Assembly: GCF_963664135.1 (NCBI RefSeq)
Contig: NZ_OY760905.1
Span: 868,001 to 932,000, forward strand
Origin: an uncultured Acetobacterium sp.
GTDB taxonomy: Bacteria; Bacillota; Clostridia; Eubacteriales; Eubacteriaceae
DNA length: 64,000 nucleotides
Direction of reading: 5' to 3'
Positions 4,763 through 14,046 of this stretch are shown here, piece after piece. Both the position numbers and the translations under genes were made by a program. The notes under the pieces were generated by a model. It was not told where the DNA came from. It saw only the letters and a list, made by a program, of their open reading frames with translations, and ran no database searches. Position 1 is the stretch's first letter. The number at the start of each line of letters is the position of its first letter.

Positions 4763-5650
4763 TTAATGCCCTAATAGCACGGCTTCAACCGTTTTAAACC
4801 CGATCCGTTCAATGGTCTGAGCAAACCGTTCGCCTGGCAAACCATTTTCCTGATAGAAAATGATAATTCTCTCAATAGTCGCTAAAAGTTCTTCCTGGTC
4901 CGTAAAGAGCCGATTCAGTCCATTTCCCCTGGCCACCTGTTTGCCCCAGCGGCCGCCTATGACAATTTTGTATCCTGTATCACCGCCGGTAACTGCCTGA
5001 AAAGGGCATTTTCCAATGCACATCCCGCAGTTGAGACATGCCTGGGGATTGATAGCGATCTTCTCATCAGCCAATTGAGCAGCCCCAACGGCACAGGCCT
5101 TCGCAACCCCACAGCTTTTGCAGTTCCGGCATTCATCTTGATTAACGACCGGCCGATATTGGCCAATAATACCAACATCATTCAAGTCGGGCTTGACACA
5201 ATTGTTGGGACATCCGCCCACGGCCATTTTAAATTTGTGAGGCAAAACGAGATTTCGCATGCCGGTATAAAAGCGATCATGAATTTCTTTTGAAAGTCCA
5301 AAGGTGTCGATTAACCCGTATTGACAGGTAGTGCCTTTACAGGACATAACCGGACGCACCTTCGTTCCGGTTCCGCCGGTTTCTAATCCGCCTTCTGCCA
5401 GGCAATTTCTGAAGTCATCGATCTGATCAAATGCAATTCCCTGACACTCAATGGTCAGGCGGGTGGTTAATGCCAGATAACCGTTGCCGTATTTTTCTGC
5501 TGCTTCAATAATTTTTTTTGCTTGTTCGATGGTGATTAACCCATTTTCAGTGATCACCCGACCGGAAAAATTATCGGTGCCCTTATTATTTAAAAAACCC
5601 AGTCCCTTGACTCTTTTTTCTTCTTCTTTGCTGATTGTAAGTGTTGCCAA
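4763..5650 (-). CDS. Sulfite/nitrite reductase-like 4Fe-4S protein with two ferredoxin clusters (AsrC/Dsr-like)
   Basis: A 295-residue cytoplasmic redox protein of the short dissimilatory-type sulfite reductase family (AsrC, Fsr C-terminal half, Dsr-LP). Cys104/Cys109 (CKGTTC) and Cys147/Cys151 (CPNNC) form the siroheme-coupled 4Fe-4S ligand set. Two ferredoxin motifs lie between them and the tail: Cys174/177/180/186 and Cys205/208/211/215. There is no AsrA or AsrB neighbour, so electrons must come from a ferredoxin or another donor. Translation appears to begin with TTG at 5650, with a weak ribosome site. A divergent LysR gene 170 bp away is the likely regulator. Sulfite reduction is likely from the family; other siroheme reductions cannot be excluded. 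Confidence 0.83.
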   Translation of the reverse strand: MATLTISKEEEKRVKGLGFLNNKGTDNFSGRVITENGLITIEQAKKIIEAAEKYGNGYLALTTRLTIECQGIAFDQIDDFRNCLAEGGLETGGTGTKVRPVMSCKGTTCQYGLIDTFGLSKEIHDRFYTGMRNLVLPHKFKMAVGGCPNNCVKPDLNDVGIIGQYRPVVNQDECRNCKSCGVAKACAVGAAQLADEKIAINPQACLNCGMCIGKCPFQAVTGGDTGYKIVIGGRWGKQVARGNGLNRLFTDQEELLATIERIIIFYQENGLPGERFAQTIERIGFKTVEAVLLGH

Positions 5651-10052: not shown

Positions 10053-11042
10053 CTAAAACTCCAGCAGATCCAGCACCTTGTCGTCCACATGGCGGTTCTC
10101 GCCGACAAAGGGATAATTGTGGATATGCAGGGCCGGGTTAAAGTTCAGCTCGATGATGCTGTAATTCGTGGCATCGGGTTTTTCGTGAATATCCTTTATG
10201 ATGATATCGGCACCGCAGATCCGGGCACCGACTGCCTGGGCTGCCGCCATTGCAATGGCCTTGTAGTCATCAATAATATTATCGGTAAAATCAAGGCTAT
10301 CCCCGCCGGTACTGATATTGGAGTTTTCCCGGAGAAAGACGGTTTCGCCATTCTCGGGAATGGTCTCGATGGATTTATTCTGCTCACTGAGAAAAGCAAT
10401 TTCAGTTTTCCCTAGTTGGATCTTCTCCAGAGGCGTGACATAGCCCTTCCCCCGCAGCGGATTCCGGTTTTTTTCAGCCACCAACGCTTCAATGGTATGA
10501 ACCCCATCGCCCACCACATTGGCCGGAACCCGGTGGAGAATCCCCACAACCTCATCACCGATCACCAGAAACCGATATTCCTTGCCGAGCACAAATTCTT
10601 CAATCAAGACGGATGTATCATGAGCGAATGCCTGGATCACCGCCGTCCGATAGCAGTTTTCGCATTGGAGATTTTTATGGATAACGATCCCCAGACCAAA
10701 ATTGGAAGATTTGGGCTTGATCACGATATCTTTGCCCCGGAACGCTTGATAATGCACCATCGCTTCCGCCGCCGATTTAACTTTGATCCCCGATGGCACA
10801 TTGATGCCCTTTTCCCGGAGAATTAGCTTGGTGACTTCTTTGTTTTCCATAATTAAGGGGGCAATGTAGCTATCGGCCGATGTCCGAGTCGCCTGTTTGA
10901 TGTATTCGGTCTTACTGCCTTTTTTAAGCCGGATGAAATTATCTTCCCGATCCAAAATATCAACCGCAATGCCCCGCCGCTCGGCGGCATCAATCAGCAT
11001 CGCTGTTGATAATTCCAATCCATCATGATTATTTATAAACAT
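10053..11042 (-). CDS. GshF/GshAB-type glutathione synthetase module, stand-alone ATP-grasp ligase
   Basis: A 329-residue ATP-grasp protein that follows the C-terminal half of bifunctional GshF closely: DREDNFIRL, VIKPKSSNFGLGI, EEFVLGKEYRFLVIGDE, HRVPANVVGDG, ENSNISTGGDSLDFTD, IELNFNPALHIHNYPF. In GshF this half joins gamma-glutamylcysteine to glycine using ATP. The N-terminal ligase half and any separate gshA are absent here. I place the start at the ATG at 11042 because AAGGTGG sits 5 bp upstream. A longer frame starting at 11081 would begin inside a perfect hairpin. It lies 140 bp downstream of hgcB on the same strand, so a low-molecular-weight thiol role next to mercury methylation is possible. 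Cyanophycin-synthetase-like chemistry is an alternative. Confidence 0.82.
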   Translation of the reverse strand: MFINNHDGLELSTAMLIDAAERRGIAVDILDREDNFIRLKKGSKTEYIKQATRTSADSYIAPLIMENKEVTKLILREKGINVPSGIKVKSAAEAMVHYQAFRGKDIVIKPKSSNFGLGIVIHKNLQCENCYRTAVIQAFAHDTSVLIEEFVLGKEYRFLVIGDEVVGILHRVPANVVGDGVHTIEALVAEKNRNPLRGKGYVTPLEKIQLGKTEIAFLSEQNKSIETIPENGETVFLRENSNISTGGDSLDFTDNIIDDYKAIAMAAAQAVGARICGADIIIKDIHEKPDATNYSIIELNFNPALHIHNYPFVGENRHVDDKVLDLLEF

Positions 11043-11056
11043 AGTGACCACCTTCT

Positions 11057-11084
11057 GAAGTGATGAATCCCGGTTCATCACTTC
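11057..11084 (-). promoter_or_regulatory. Perfect 11-bp hairpin in the leader of the ATP-grasp gene
   Basis: Arms GAAGTGATGAA (11057-11067) and TTCATCACTTC (11074-11084) flank a 6-base loop, ending 3 bp from the AAGGTGG ribosome site. There is no T-tract, so it is more likely an operator or leader stem than a terminator. On the minus strand an extended -10 element (TGTGATAAT) lies just upstream at about 11100-11108. Confidence 0.6.
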
Positions 11085-11181: not shown

Positions 11182-11487
11182 CTAACAGCAGGAGCTATCC
11201 GATTCATGACCACCTTCACAATCGCAGCTGGGTTCGGCTCCGGTAAAGATGCTCTTGAGAATAGCCGAAGCGCATCCTACCCCGGTCTTCACGGTAATAG
11301 CGTCAGTGGGACAATTCATGGCACAGGCCCCGCATTCCATGCAGGCATCTTTGTCGCGAATCAGACTCTGACCTTCAAACAATTCAAAGACCAGATGCGG
11401 GCAAACCTCAAGGCAGCGTCGGCACCCGACGCAACGACTTTTTTCCAGATTGAGGGAAACGACATTTTTAAAGTAACGGTTTTTCAT
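11182..11487 (-). CDS. hgcB: HgcB, ferredoxin partner of the mercury methyltransferase
   Basis: A 101-residue 2[4Fe-4S] ferredoxin that supplies electrons to the corrinoid of HgcA in mercury methylation. Two full motifs are visible: CVGCRRCLEVCP and CMECGACAMNCP. The family-specific GVGCASAI segment and a cysteine-rich tail (CDC, then terminal CC) follow; the terminal pair is the feature thought to handle Hg(II). I use the ATG at 11487 (AAGGA 7 bp upstream) rather than an upstream TTG. It begins 32 bp after the hgcA stop on the same strand, the conserved hgcAB order. Ordinary bacterial ferredoxins lack this tail and the GVGCA segment, so the assignment is firm. Confidence 0.93.
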   Translation of the reverse strand: MKNRYFKNVVSLNLEKSRCVGCRRCLEVCPHLVFELFEGQSLIRDKDACMECGACAMNCPTDAITVKTGVGCASAILKSIFTGAEPSCDCEGGHESDSSCC

Positions 11488-11519
11488 ATGTTTTTCCTTT
11501 ATAGAATTAAACAATTCGA

Positions 11520-12713
11520 TTAATACAGGTGATTAATCAAAAGCAGGAGAGCGCCAGCACTGATTGAAAAAAGCAACCCGGGAATCGCAATCCGCATTTC
11601 TTTCTGAACTCCGGAATGTGATGTAAAGGTTGATGACCCGGTAAAGTTCATCGCGTAATAGGCAGCAATGGCCGGAAAGGCCAGCAGATATCCGAACAAG
11701 CCAACCAGAGGAATTCCCAAACTGATCGTCTCATGTTTACTGGCAATGATGGCAAGCGTACCCATCAGACCTAACAGCCAGCCTTTGAAGGCAAACGCTT
11801 TTCCGGGAATAAACGGCAATAAGACTGGGGTCAGCACACAGCCGATTAAAACAGCGCCGATGTATGTCCCCACATCGATAAGACCAAACGGTTCTGTTAC
11901 CACAAAGTTCAACAGGAACACTACCCCGAAAATCATCAGGGACTGCTTGATCGTGCCAACCAGTTCAATGGGGGTCAACACCAGTCGATCATACAGCGTA
12001 AATCTGACGGTTCGCATGCTGTCGGTTGCAACCATGCCAGCCTCGAGAAAGGTTTTAATATCACTGGCTCGGACGGGTCCATAACTGACCCGAAATCCAG
12101 ATTCTTTAAAAACAGCCTGCGCGATTACGCCCGATGCACCTAACTGGGGCAAAATTATGTTGCGCTGCGATACGATTTCCCTTAACCTGGTTTTGTCCAG
12201 TCTTGAGACGATCTCTTTGGTACCGAAGCTTCCTTTTCCGGCGGCACACCAGACATTGATACCATTGGTATCGATGACTAGAATCCACGCGTTCAGCCCG
12301 GTGAGTTCTTTTCGCAAAGCATCAAAAGAAAGTTTGTAATTGCCTGAGACTAGAATCGGCGAATCTTGATCGGGGCTGCCCACACCATAAAAACCGGGAT
12401 TGATTTTATAATTCATTCTGCCGATACCCCAGCGGACTTTCCATCCACCGAGCACATCTTTAAAATTTAATCTGGTAGTAATCTGCGGGACGATTCCGAT
12501 CGGAGTTTCAATTTTCCCGGTAATCCAACGGGCATTTTTATCGATTTCTGAAACAAATTTTCCCGACGGCTGAATCGACGGCGTTTGGCAGCAGGAAGCC
12601 GGCTGGTTGATCGCGTCAGACTCGTTGTCATGACACCCACAAGAGGGCGTCGCTGTTATTACCGCCTCAGGCGAATTTTTTTCACTGGTGCAAGAGCAGT
12701 TCTGATTGTCCAA
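11520..12713 (-). CDS. hgcA: HgcA, corrinoid-dependent mercury methyltransferase
   Basis: A 397-residue membrane corrinoid protein that transfers a methyl group from its cobalamin to Hg(II). The diagnostic cap-helix motif NVWCAAGKGSFGT is present, with Cys156 as the lower axial ligand. The N-terminal corrinoid domain covers about residues 65-235. Five hydrophobic spans follow, roughly 260-395 (IKQSLMIFGVVFLLNFVV first, LLFSISAGALLLLINHLY last). The protein starts with TTG at 12713, with AGGAGGA 8 bp upstream; the nearby ATG is out of frame and too close. Unusually, the first ~45 residues are rich in paired cysteines (Cys6/8, 25/27, 41/42). An operon with hgcB and a well-formed promoter upstream indicate that it is expressed. 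Confidence 0.95.
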   Translation of the reverse strand: MDNQNCSCTSEKNSPEAVITATPSCGCHDNESDAINQPASCCQTPSIQPSGKFVSEIDKNARWITGKIETPIGIVPQITTRLNFKDVLGGWKVRWGIGRMNYKINPGFYGVGSPDQDSPILVSGNYKLSFDALRKELTGLNAWILVIDTNGINVWCAAGKGSFGTKEIVSRLDKTRLREIVSQRNIILPQLGASGVIAQAVFKESGFRVSYGPVRASDIKTFLEAGMVATDSMRTVRFTLYDRLVLTPIELVGTIKQSLMIFGVVFLLNFVVTEPFGLIDVGTYIGAVLIGCVLTPVLLPFIPGKAFAFKGWLLGLMGTLAIIASKHETISLGIPLVGLFGYLLAFPAIAAYYAMNFTGSSTFTSHSGVQKEMRIAIPGLLFSISAGALLLLINHLY

Positions 12714-12792: not shown

Positions 12793-12832
12793 AACATGCT
12801 TATATGTTAGTTGACCGCTATCAGCTTGTCAA
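12793..12832 (-). promoter_or_regulatory. hgcA promoter with overlapping inverted repeat
   Basis: On the minus strand TTGACA (12827-12832), a 17-base spacer and TAACAT (12804-12809) form a near-consensus SigA promoter. The -10 element overlaps an inverted repeat (12793-12797 AACAT with 12804-12808 ATGTT), placed where a repressor would block transcription. ArsR-type regulators are reported with hgcAB in other genomes, but no arsR gene is nearby. Confidence 0.65.
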
Positions 12833-13066: not shown

Positions 13067-13077
13067 TATTTCATAAA

Positions 13078-13125
13078 GGTGATGGAGTTCACCTGAATTG
13101 CTTTACAGCTGATGACTCCTGCAGG
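13078..13125 (+). ncRNA. Fluoride riboswitch (crcB motif)
   Basis: GGTGATGGAGTTCACC, a short linker, then CAGCTGATGACTCCT reproduce the conserved core of the crcB RNA: the GGNGAUGG start, the stem closing before CUGA, and the GCUGAUGnCUCCU end with its pseudoknot. It starts about 5 bases after the predicted transcription start, is followed by an overlapping terminator, and precedes two FluC genes. Fluoride binding should prevent terminator formation and turn the exporters on. Confidence 0.92.
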
Positions 13126-13149
13126 ATTTTTCATTGCTGCAGGTTTTTT
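13118..13149 (+). terminator. Regulated terminator of the fluoride riboswitch
   Basis: CCTGCAG (13118-13124) pairs with CTGCAGG (13137-13143), followed by TTTTTT. The left arm shares bases with the CUCCU end of the riboswitch, giving mutually exclusive folds. Confidence 0.85.
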
Positions 13150-13228: not shown

Positions 13229-13666
13229 ATGAAAAAATACTATTTTATCGCCGCCGGTGGCGCCATTGGGGCGCTGTTGCGGTTCAAACTTAAAACCTCG
13301 CCGTCACTTTTTCAATCCGGGGACCAGTTGCTGAATCTAGCCTTGACCATTCTGTTAATTAACCTGATTGGGTGCCTGATTCTGGGGATGTTGAATGCGG
13401 TGTTTTCCAAAACCGACCGATTCAGTACTGAGCTGAAACTGGGTCTGACCACCGGATTGGTGGGCGCCTTTACTACCTACTCAACCTTCTGCAAGGCGAG
13501 TATCAATATTCTTGATGCCGGTTATCTGCGGATTTTCTGTTACTACGTGGCCGCATCAATCATTCTCGGATTAGGAGCGGTTTACACTGGTCACCTCATC
13601 GGCCATTATCTGGTGCACCCCGTTGGCAAAAGTCTGGTATCCCGCTTCAGTTTTGATTATAATTAA
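13229..13666 (+). CDS. crcB1: Fluoride ion channel FluC/CrcB, first subunit
   Basis: A 145-residue, four-helix membrane protein of the CrcB/Fluc family, which lets fluoride leave the cell as a dual-topology dimer. It has the GGAIGALLRF start, the conserved asparagine in NLIGC, and TGLVGAFTTYSTFCK, corresponding to the family G-TT-STF motif of the pore. AGGAGG sits 6 bp before the ATG. It is followed 11 bp later by a second, divergent CrcB, a pairing expected for heterodimeric channels in Firmicutes. Expression is under the fluoride riboswitch upstream. Confidence 0.92.
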   Translation: MKKYYFIAAGGAIGALLRFKLKTSPSLFQSGDQLLNLALTILLINLIGCLILGMLNAVFSKTDRFSTELKLGLTTGLVGAFTTYSTFCKASINILDAGYLRIFCYYVAASIILGLGAVYTGHLIGHYLVHPVGKSLVSRFSFDYN

Positions 13667-13677
13667 GGATCCGACTG

Positions 13678-14046
13678 ATGGAAACTTTATGCGTCATCCT
13701 TGGCGGCGCTCTGGGCAGTACCACCCGATATTATCTGGGGAAACGCTTCGCTTCCCGGCATCAGCACATCCCCGTTGGCACCTTTGTCATCAATGTGTCC
13801 GGCGCCTTTCTATTCGGTGTGGTAACTGGTTTAGACATCTCAACGCTTCTTTATGGTTTGTTTGCCGAAGGTTTTCTGGGCGCCTACACAACCTTTTCAA
13901 CTTTTATGTTTGAAGATTTTGTCATGCTGCAGAATAACCGGATCCTCAGCGCCATGATCTATATCATGGCCACGCTGTTATTGGGCTTCCTCGCTTTTTA
14001 TGGCGGATTCCAGCTTTCAACTGCTTTGGCCGGCAACGGCATTTAA
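13678..14046 (+). CDS. crcB2: Fluoride ion channel FluC/CrcB, second subunit
   Basis: A 122-residue CrcB/Fluc family protein with GGALGSTTRYYLG at the N-terminus, the conserved asparagine in FVINVSGAF, and GFLGAYTTFSTFMFED. Four hydrophobic segments span nearly the whole chain. It is translated 11 bp after the first FluC gene and shares its riboswitch. It likely forms an antiparallel heterodimer with the first subunit, which is usual when two short crcB genes are adjacent. A strong terminator follows. Confidence 0.92.
   Translation: METLCVILGGALGSTTRYYLGKRFASRHQHIPVGTFVINVSGAFLFGVVTGLDISTLLYGLFAEGFLGAYTTFSTFMFEDFVMLQNNRILSAMIYIMATLLLGFLAFYGGFQLSTALAGNGI

Follow-up and report, generated by a model that had tools for sequence, protein, structure and literature searches.

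The minus strand of a 64,000-nucleotide (nt) stretch of DNA from an uncultured Acetobacterium sp. (hereafter the window) carries two adjacent genes, hgcA and hgcB, which encode a corrinoid protein and a dicluster ferredoxin of the HgcAB kind, the pair by which other anaerobes convert mercury to methylmercury. Acetobacterium is a well-studied, cultivable genus of acetogens that use H2 and CO2. The genome to which the window belongs (G000) is a single contig of 4,084,676 bases. The two genes, and the part of hgcA that encodes the N-terminal tail, are as follows.

11520..12713, minus strand: hgcA, corrinoid protein of 397 amino acids (aa), with a cysteine-bearing N-terminal tail, a corrinoid-binding domain with cap-helix Cys156 (NVWCAAGK) and a C-terminal membrane domain.
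11182..11487, minus strand: hgcB, dicluster ferredoxin with GVGCA and a C-terminal CDC...SCC tail, ending in the stop codon TAG; likely start ATG at 11487, 101 aa.
12552..12713, minus strand: the cysteine-rich N-terminal tail of hgcA, residues 1-54, with cysteines at 6, 8, 25, 27, 41 and 42.

Both open frames are intact, as an earlier sequence-only reading of this DNA had claimed. The hgcA frame runs from a TTG at 12713 to 11520, and the hgcB frame, when opened at a TTG at 11514, runs to 11182 (110 aa) and lies directly downstream of hgcA on the same strand with a gap of 5 nt. The ribosome sites proposed in that reading hold for hgcA, whose TTG is preceded by AGGAGG at 8 nt, but not for the TTG of hgcB, which has no comparable site. 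An in-frame ATG at 11487, 32 nt past the hgcA stop, is preceded by AAAGGAAAAACAT (AAAGGA), and on the strength of this upstream site we take the ATG rather than the TTG as the likely start of HgcB. Read in this way HgcB has 101 aa, and most Bacillota homologues have 97-102 aa. No stops or frameshifts are present in any of the three Acetobacterium-group copies of hgcAB.

Against the NCBIfam equivalog model NF040863, HgcA scores 451.3 bits (cut-off 275, E 1.7e-135), with a match that spans profile positions 1-323 of 325 and includes the membrane part; its PF03599 domain scores 46.6 bits (cut-off 24.8). HgcB scores 124 bits against the equivalog NF040864 (cut-off 99, E 1.6e-36), and a profile search detects 4Fe-4S domains in it. 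The motifs named in the sequence-only reading are all in place. In HgcA, GINVWCAAGKGSFG provides the cap-helix cysteine, Cys156, which is invariant in all 38 aligned HgcA rows (picked from 76); HgcB has two CxxCxxC...CP cluster motifs (CVGCRRCLEVCP and CMECGACAMNCP), GVGCA and the terminal SCC. The same reading had given HgcA five C-terminal membrane spans. A hydropathy scan agrees that the membrane domain is C-terminal and consists of about five spans, with a count of exactly five being plausible: all maxima above 1.2 lie past residue 244, 19-residue windows starting in residues 1-200 reach at most 1.08, and ten overlapping stretches were merged by eye into spans near residues 250-283, 284-302, 306-324, 332-350 and 375-393. 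Profile scores and motifs together confirm that the window holds a complete hgcAB pair of the known kind, with all family-required residues present.

A corrinoid domain and a ferredoxin also occur together in HgcAB-like fusions (NF043039) and in CpaM-linked forms, but there as a single chain or in linkage with a methyltransferase. We considered whether the genes in the window could likewise encode a corrinoid/ferredoxin system whose true substrate is not mercury and which makes no methylmercury. To our knowledge the natural purpose of HgcAB is unsettled, which counts in favor of such a system, as do three distant family members (L100, L101 and L103) that fall under the HgcA cut-off and reach comparable scores on the fusion model. 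However, the window HgcA scores 195.3 bits on the fusion model, below its cut-off of 285, against 451 bits on the HgcA model; hgcA and hgcB are two separate genes, HgcB keeps all of its tail cysteines, and HgcA falls inside the 70-row main HgcA clade, away from the distant rows. A substrate other than mercury thus appears improbable.

We examined the placement of HgcA in a 77-row tree of 70 main-clade HgcA, three distant HgcA-like proteins and, as the outgroup, four large subunits of the corrinoid iron-sulfur protein (CFeSP). Three loci (L052, L097 and L102) were left out, and two more, L003 and L005, were removed as duplicates (presumed in the case of L005) of L029 and L030, L003 lying within the same contig. 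The window HgcA joins L029 and L030 with support of 100, among 22 mostly Bacillota HgcA rows (95 by the Shimodaira-Hasegawa-like approximate likelihood-ratio test, SH-aLRT). In a more careful 37-row tree the three Acetobacterium-group HgcA unite at 100/100 and are nested in 24 rows at 98/93. The closest named HgcA is that of Acetobacterium sp. bin S2.10 (L029, 90% identity), followed by that of "HGW-Firmicutes-4" (L030, carrier genome G006, 79% identity), which bears out the earlier description of the host as an acetogen-like Firmicute.

The large subunit of CFeSP (AcsC/CdhE) has a corrinoid-binding domain like that of HgcA, and so a CFeSP/CdhD-type protein of the Wood-Ljungdahl pathway could in principle have been misread as HgcA. 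In favor of a misreading are the shared PF03599 domain and a PDB profile search with HgcA, in which the four matched sequences were all CFeSP chains. The window protein, however, has the membrane domain, the cap cysteine and the adjacent HgcB, whereas CFeSP has no membrane domain, a different partner and, in the one printed alignment to chain 2h9a_A, no cysteine at the cap position. HgcA scores 71.1 bits on the acetyl-CoA synthase gamma model PRK04165, below its cut-off of 306. As expected of an acetogen, the same genome encodes its own CFeSP large subunit elsewhere (a 454-aa frame, 26% identical to HgcA over residues 102-223), and long starred branches separate the two in the tree. The phylogeny with the CFeSP outgroup, a check proposed in the sequence-only reading, placed the window protein within HgcA, with no grouping with CdhD-type proteins; CFeSP sits on a long separate branch whose exact point of joining is unsure, as long branches meet there. 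As far as sequence goes, the CFeSP/CdhD interpretation is refuted, and we give it a negligible chance.

Selection over the whole of both genes is purifying. The ratio of nonsynonymous to synonymous substitution rates (dN/dS) is 0.25 for hgcA against both relatives (L029 and L030), and 0.05 and 0.09 for hgcB (110-codon frame) against two relatives, a range of 0.05-0.25. Based on these observations, we propose, with a probability of about 0.88, that the window contains a functional hgcAB pair that is kept by a minority of Acetobacterium and whose predicted activity most likely enables methylation of Hg(II). In the predicted reaction, HgcB would pass electrons to the corrinoid of HgcA to give Co(I); a methyl donor, which is S-adenosylmethionine (SAM) in the biochemistry of ND132, would convert this to methyl-Co(III) with Cys156 of the cap helix as the lower ligand; the methyl group would pass to thiol-delivered Hg(II); and methylmercury would exit by way of the HgcB cysteines (GVGC and the terminal CC). 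For the ND132 system, the portions consulted of two papers report that SAM, not methyltetrahydrofolate, methylates Co(I)-HgcAB (PMC11588087), and that Cys93 is the lower ligand, with transfer of methyl to thiol-bound Hg(II) and release via HgcB cysteines (PMC7305189). We infer expression of the pair and operation of this reaction in the host, along with a role for an N-terminal cysteine pair of HgcA as an extra arm.

This last proposal concerns the first 54 residues of HgcA, which hold CSC, CGC and SCC and include the pair Cys41-Cys42. All six cysteine columns of the tail are identical in the window, L029 and L030, compared with 19 of 47 other columns (Fisher p 0.008, a post hoc test). For a wider comparison we assembled a 73-row set consisting of the window and 72 loci of HgcA or HgcA-like proteins with the motif (L052, L100 and L102, with no motif match, stayed out). 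A CC pair is present in the tail of 36/73 HgcA when the best-supported start is used and of 38/73 with any start, L051 and L069 gaining the pair with an upstream start; 34/73 have it within the first 60 residues. Among 377 neighboring open reading frames (ORFs) taken as controls (ATG start, at least 180 aa, first 60 residues; the HgcA tails vary in length, with a mean of 50), only 9 have CC, a difference from the 36/73 with p 1.6e-24, not corrected for kinship. At least two cysteines occur in 37/73 HgcA tails and in 79/377 controls. On the tree, the distribution of CC in the tail needs at least 11 changes. The window resembles other Bacillota in this respect, with CC in the tail of 20 of the 24 rows counted, itself included.

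Rows without CC often have a different form of the pair. An in-frame Cys-TGA lies 104-106 codons before the cap motif in 19 of these 37 rows (L053, L057, L058, L059, L060, L063, L064, L068, L074, L076, L083-L088, L090, L096 and L099), with 0/37 in each of the other two frames and 0/36 among the CC rows; the window has CC and no TGA. With a TGA upstream of the motif, the usual open frame of these 19 would start too late. A reading in which HgcA of the Desulfobacterales type has no tail is wrong, as it stops at the TGA. Three more rows (L065, L073 and L094) have a TGA 103-106 codons before the motif that follows G, S or T; in L095 and L098 a TGA lies at 101 and 110 codons, outside any such context, and the rest of the 37 have none. 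In an alignment of 20 selected rows, ten with CC and ten with Cys-TGA, in which the putative selenocysteine (U) was set as C, all ten TGA codons fell in the column of window Cys42; the CU form shares a cysteine pair motif with the window, which has CC at this place. In all, CC or a Cys-TGA read as CU is present in 55/73 HgcA or HgcA-like proteins.

Two other observations bear on selenocysteine (Sec) in these rows. Hairpins can be seen after the TGA, but the z scores of the 48-nt folds there, which run from about -3.0 to +0.57 in the 22 rows, average only -0.98, a weak signal by energy for a selenocysteine insertion sequence; GGCUCAG(U/G)UGAGCC is common to many rows of one TGA-type group. A search of 50 genomes found selB over cut-off in 19/22 genomes of TGA-type rows and 13/28 others (Fisher p 0.007, kinship not corrected, and the TGA-type rows being largely one lineage); against the genomes of CC rows (12/24), p is 0.012. 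The TGA-type exceptions are G073, with none, G076, with selB in two pieces, and G082, with a piece at a contig end. The Sec form of HgcA is already known: the consulted part of a 2026 review (PMC13188914) includes HgcA (NF040863) in a table of selenoproteins under the motif CU, and HgcB under GVGU, and credits Haft & Gwadz 2023 for the selenoprotein HgcA; that text gives no position for the CU within HgcA. What would be new here is the placement of the pair in the N-terminal tail and its presence as CC or CU in 55/73.

These results led us to speculate about what the pair could do. We suggest that it would act as a thiol or selenol arm that handles mercury. A more specific version, which we put forward tentatively and at slightly less than even odds, is that in most HgcA the CC or CU, borne on a flexible tail at the N-terminus, would form a second arm for mercury, facing the C-terminal cysteine arm of HgcB; one arm would bring Hg(II) to methyl-cobalt and the other would remove methylmercury. 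In the part of PMC7305189 consulted, a double mutant in the cysteine tail of HgcB lost 95% of activity, and the disordered cysteine tail is called apparently unique to HgcB; we found no account of an N-terminal cysteine pair in HgcA in the literature searched, as far as those texts were available. The ND132 protein of the same paper, in the text consulted, is modeled with its corrinoid-binding domain beginning at residue 15, so that the protein as annotated has hardly any space for a tail. If the two-arm proposal is true, many HgcA would be annotated too short, without their N-terminal arm. The CC/CU pair poses a specific question, namely how mercury reaches cobalt.

Two further ideas about the tails were set aside. 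A shared origin of the HgcA N-terminal and HgcB C-terminal tails was rejected: shuffles reach the observed score in 10/2000 cases for the window and 14/2000 for L029, which is suggestive, yet in 264 for L030, 211 for L031 and 253 for L032 (for L033 no HgcB was found). Linkage between CC in the two tails is not supported: 29 rows have both, 20 only that of HgcB, 3 only that of HgcA and 6 neither (Fisher p 0.27), over the 58/73 rows with HgcB found, the HgcB search having missed several, as an HgcB-like frame lies downstream in 11 rows for which it had found none.

Within the genus, carriage of the pair is a minority trait. HgcA exceeds its cut-off in 3/19 Acetobacterium genomes, 3/40 in the family and 5/67 in the order (3/26 genera), and among the 14 genus genomes with completeness of 90% or more and contamination of 5% or less, the single carrier is the window's own. 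The L029 contig is the exact reverse complement of contig C293 of G009, a genome labeled as the same species as that of the window. The other two carriers in the order, G057 and G058, fall in a different HgcA subclade of the 37-row tree (8 rows at 98/96, within 14 at 100/100), which indicates that the Acetobacterium pair was not simply inherited along the order. We therefore looked at the flanks of the pair, which in the window consist of the following.

10053..11081, minus strand: left neighbor, an ATP-grasp ligase similar to the C-terminal portion of GshAB (NF002688, 474.5 bits, cut-off 425, profile positions 426-751).
13229..14046, plus strand: right neighbor, a crcB pair (fluoride exporter) divergent from hgcA (PF02537, 74.9 and 90.8 bits).
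13069..13128, plus strand: fluoride riboswitch of the crcB pair, not part of hgcAB (RF01734, 54.5 bits, gathering threshold 34).
12804..12832, minus strand: likely hgcA promoter, TTGACA-17 nt-TAACAT, from a consensus scan, 91-119 nt upstream of hgcA.

The ATP-grasp gene lies on the hgcB side in all three Acetobacterium carriers. The window and G006 both have the pair between this gene and crcB, G006 with extra small ORFs; G009 shows the ATP-grasp side only, and its contig stops there. In six non-carriers both slot neighbors lie at most 7 kb apart with other genes between them, and in the remaining non-carriers they are far apart or on different contigs, or these searches found one of them at most. 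In the ATP-grasp tree, the carrier G006 is sister to the non-carrier G004, and the carriers G000 and G009 are sister to the non-carrier G018; presence of hgcAB requires at least two changes on this tree and on the CrcB1 tree. Synonymous divergence (dS) from G006 is 0.53 for hgcA and 0.50 for hgcB, lower than for four flanks (0.76, 1.31, 0.97 and 1.66), and from G009 it is 0.18 and 0.30, not lower than for the flanks (0.22, 0.25, 0.05, 0.01 and 0.10). Exchange of hgcAB at the slot is possible on these data. HgcA had no match in 72,556 plasmid records, and transfer is still conceivable.

The contents of the slot vary in other ways. Between hgcB and the ATP-grasp gene, G006 has an extra ORF of about 122 aa (L146:5842-6210) that is absent in the window and DUF1232-like by eye. 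In five non-carriers (G018, G004, G016, G002 and G015; loci L144, L145, L147, L149 and L150) the slot holds a P-loop protein of about 560 aa (GQFKRGKTSFIN), dynamin-like by eye, and in the non-carrier G013 it holds a protein of about 290 aa that is also found in G016. Given this variable content, the interval may be an insertion hotspot. The ATP-grasp protein itself is free-standing, and a stretch 50% identical to it occurs in a 790-aa frame elsewhere in the genome.

Such a slot raises the alternative that hgcAB was acquired and is now decaying or silent, its presence in an unstable place being due to chance. Carriage by 3/19 genus genomes, variation of the slot among relatives and absence of the pair from G018 and G004, the sisters of carriers in the ATP-grasp tree, all favor this alternative, as does the lack of a nearby ArsR-group gene (described below) in both carriers open to this check. 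On the other side are the three copies free of stops and frameshifts, the dN/dS of 0.05-0.25, the Shine-Dalgarno sites and a promoter-like stretch conserved across divergent carriers. This stretch is the candidate promoter listed above, around which 34 nt show an 85% match (E 0.004) to a segment of G006 (L030) that lies about as far upstream of its hgcA; the consensus scan by itself is weak, with 8 sites in the region against 4.3 expected (standard deviation 2.0). Overall, a silent or decaying pair seems unlikely to us. A palindrome upstream of hgcA, TGAGCA-AG-TGCTCA, was considered as an operator and is not claimed, as it was not found in G006.

The surroundings of hgcAB were compared across loci. 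In 25/76 loci (the window counted among the 76), a gene of one similarity group lies within 3.5 kb of hgcAB; six members tested belong to the ArsR family (HTH_5), and all six are directly upstream of hgcA. Other recurrent groups are MarR (two tested, 6 loci), LMWPc (one tested, 9 loci) and SBF (one tested, 7 loci). ArsR-family genes, and less often MarR, ArsC-like and transporter genes, adjoin hgcAB in L031, L037, L041, L051, L081, L091 and others. The ArsR association is already known, since the consulted part of PMC7438021 reports links of hgcAB to ars genes and to ArsR-like regulators.

Several results weigh against a working methylation pair in this host or against the proposed N-terminal arm. 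No member of the ArsR group lies near hgcAB in the window or in L030 (the L029 contig ends 24 nt upstream), so that hgcAB may be under different control here or else silent. The pair is missing from most Acetobacterium genomes, carriers being those 3 of 19. The dN/dS of the HgcA tail is 1.46 against L029, where there are very few changes, and 0.36 against L030, so that within the tail constraint appears to be limited to the cysteines; the cysteine-column test was itself post hoc and based on essentially two lineages. Moreover, genes do not guarantee activity: in the consulted part of PMC5893877, 8/9 tested methanogens with hgcAB exceeded controls.

The pair in the window can be compared with known systems. 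It shows 54-61% identity to HgcA/HgcB of Bacillota, for example of Ruminiclostridium cellobioparum, Acetivibrio straminisolvens, and Pelotomaculum and Gracilibacter bins, and shares with them the cap-helix motif, the membrane domain and an adjacent HgcB with a terminal CC (no HgcB was found for L033). In many of these Bacillota hgcA adjoins an ArsR-family gene, and in some ArsC-like or transporter genes lie near it, whereas the Acetobacterium carriers have the ATP-grasp gene on one side and crcB on the other. Like ND132 HgcAB, as described in the consulted part of PMC7305189, the pair has a cap-helix cysteine (Cys93 in ND132) and a dicluster HgcB with an extra cysteine and a C-terminal cysteine pair. 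No report of hgcAB in Acetobacterium was found in the literature searched, in the texts available; Hg-MATE and subscription papers were outside its scope, and a prior listing is possible. In periphyton, Eubacteriaceae are among the families positively related to mercury methylation according to the consulted part of PMC8017159, which fits a carrier in this family and proves nothing. A carrier with a complete genome and a CFeSP of its own would allow the link between acetogenesis and mercury methylation to be tested, in particular whether SAM or the Wood-Ljungdahl methyl branch supplies the methyl group.

A few observations stand apart from the pair. In the window's own genome nothing exceeded the cut-off of 180 for CpaM (NF043040; best 83 bits, 23 weak matches), and the MerB profile PF03243 gave no match either there or in its control. 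In a contig from Thorarchaeota (L100:5263-7335), one 578-aa frame joins a CpaM-like SAM methyltransferase to a corrinoid and membrane protein of the HgcA-like type (INVWCAARG), and an HgcB-like ferredoxin ending in CCG follows the fused frame; the arrangement is notable in that SAM has been reported to donate the methyl group in HgcAB. Elsewhere in the window, positions 4763-5650 encode a single-chain sulfite/nitrite-reductase-like protein with ferredoxin motifs that scores below the cut-off of every NCBIfam model among the best 25 of 38 and resembles DsrB and AsrC.

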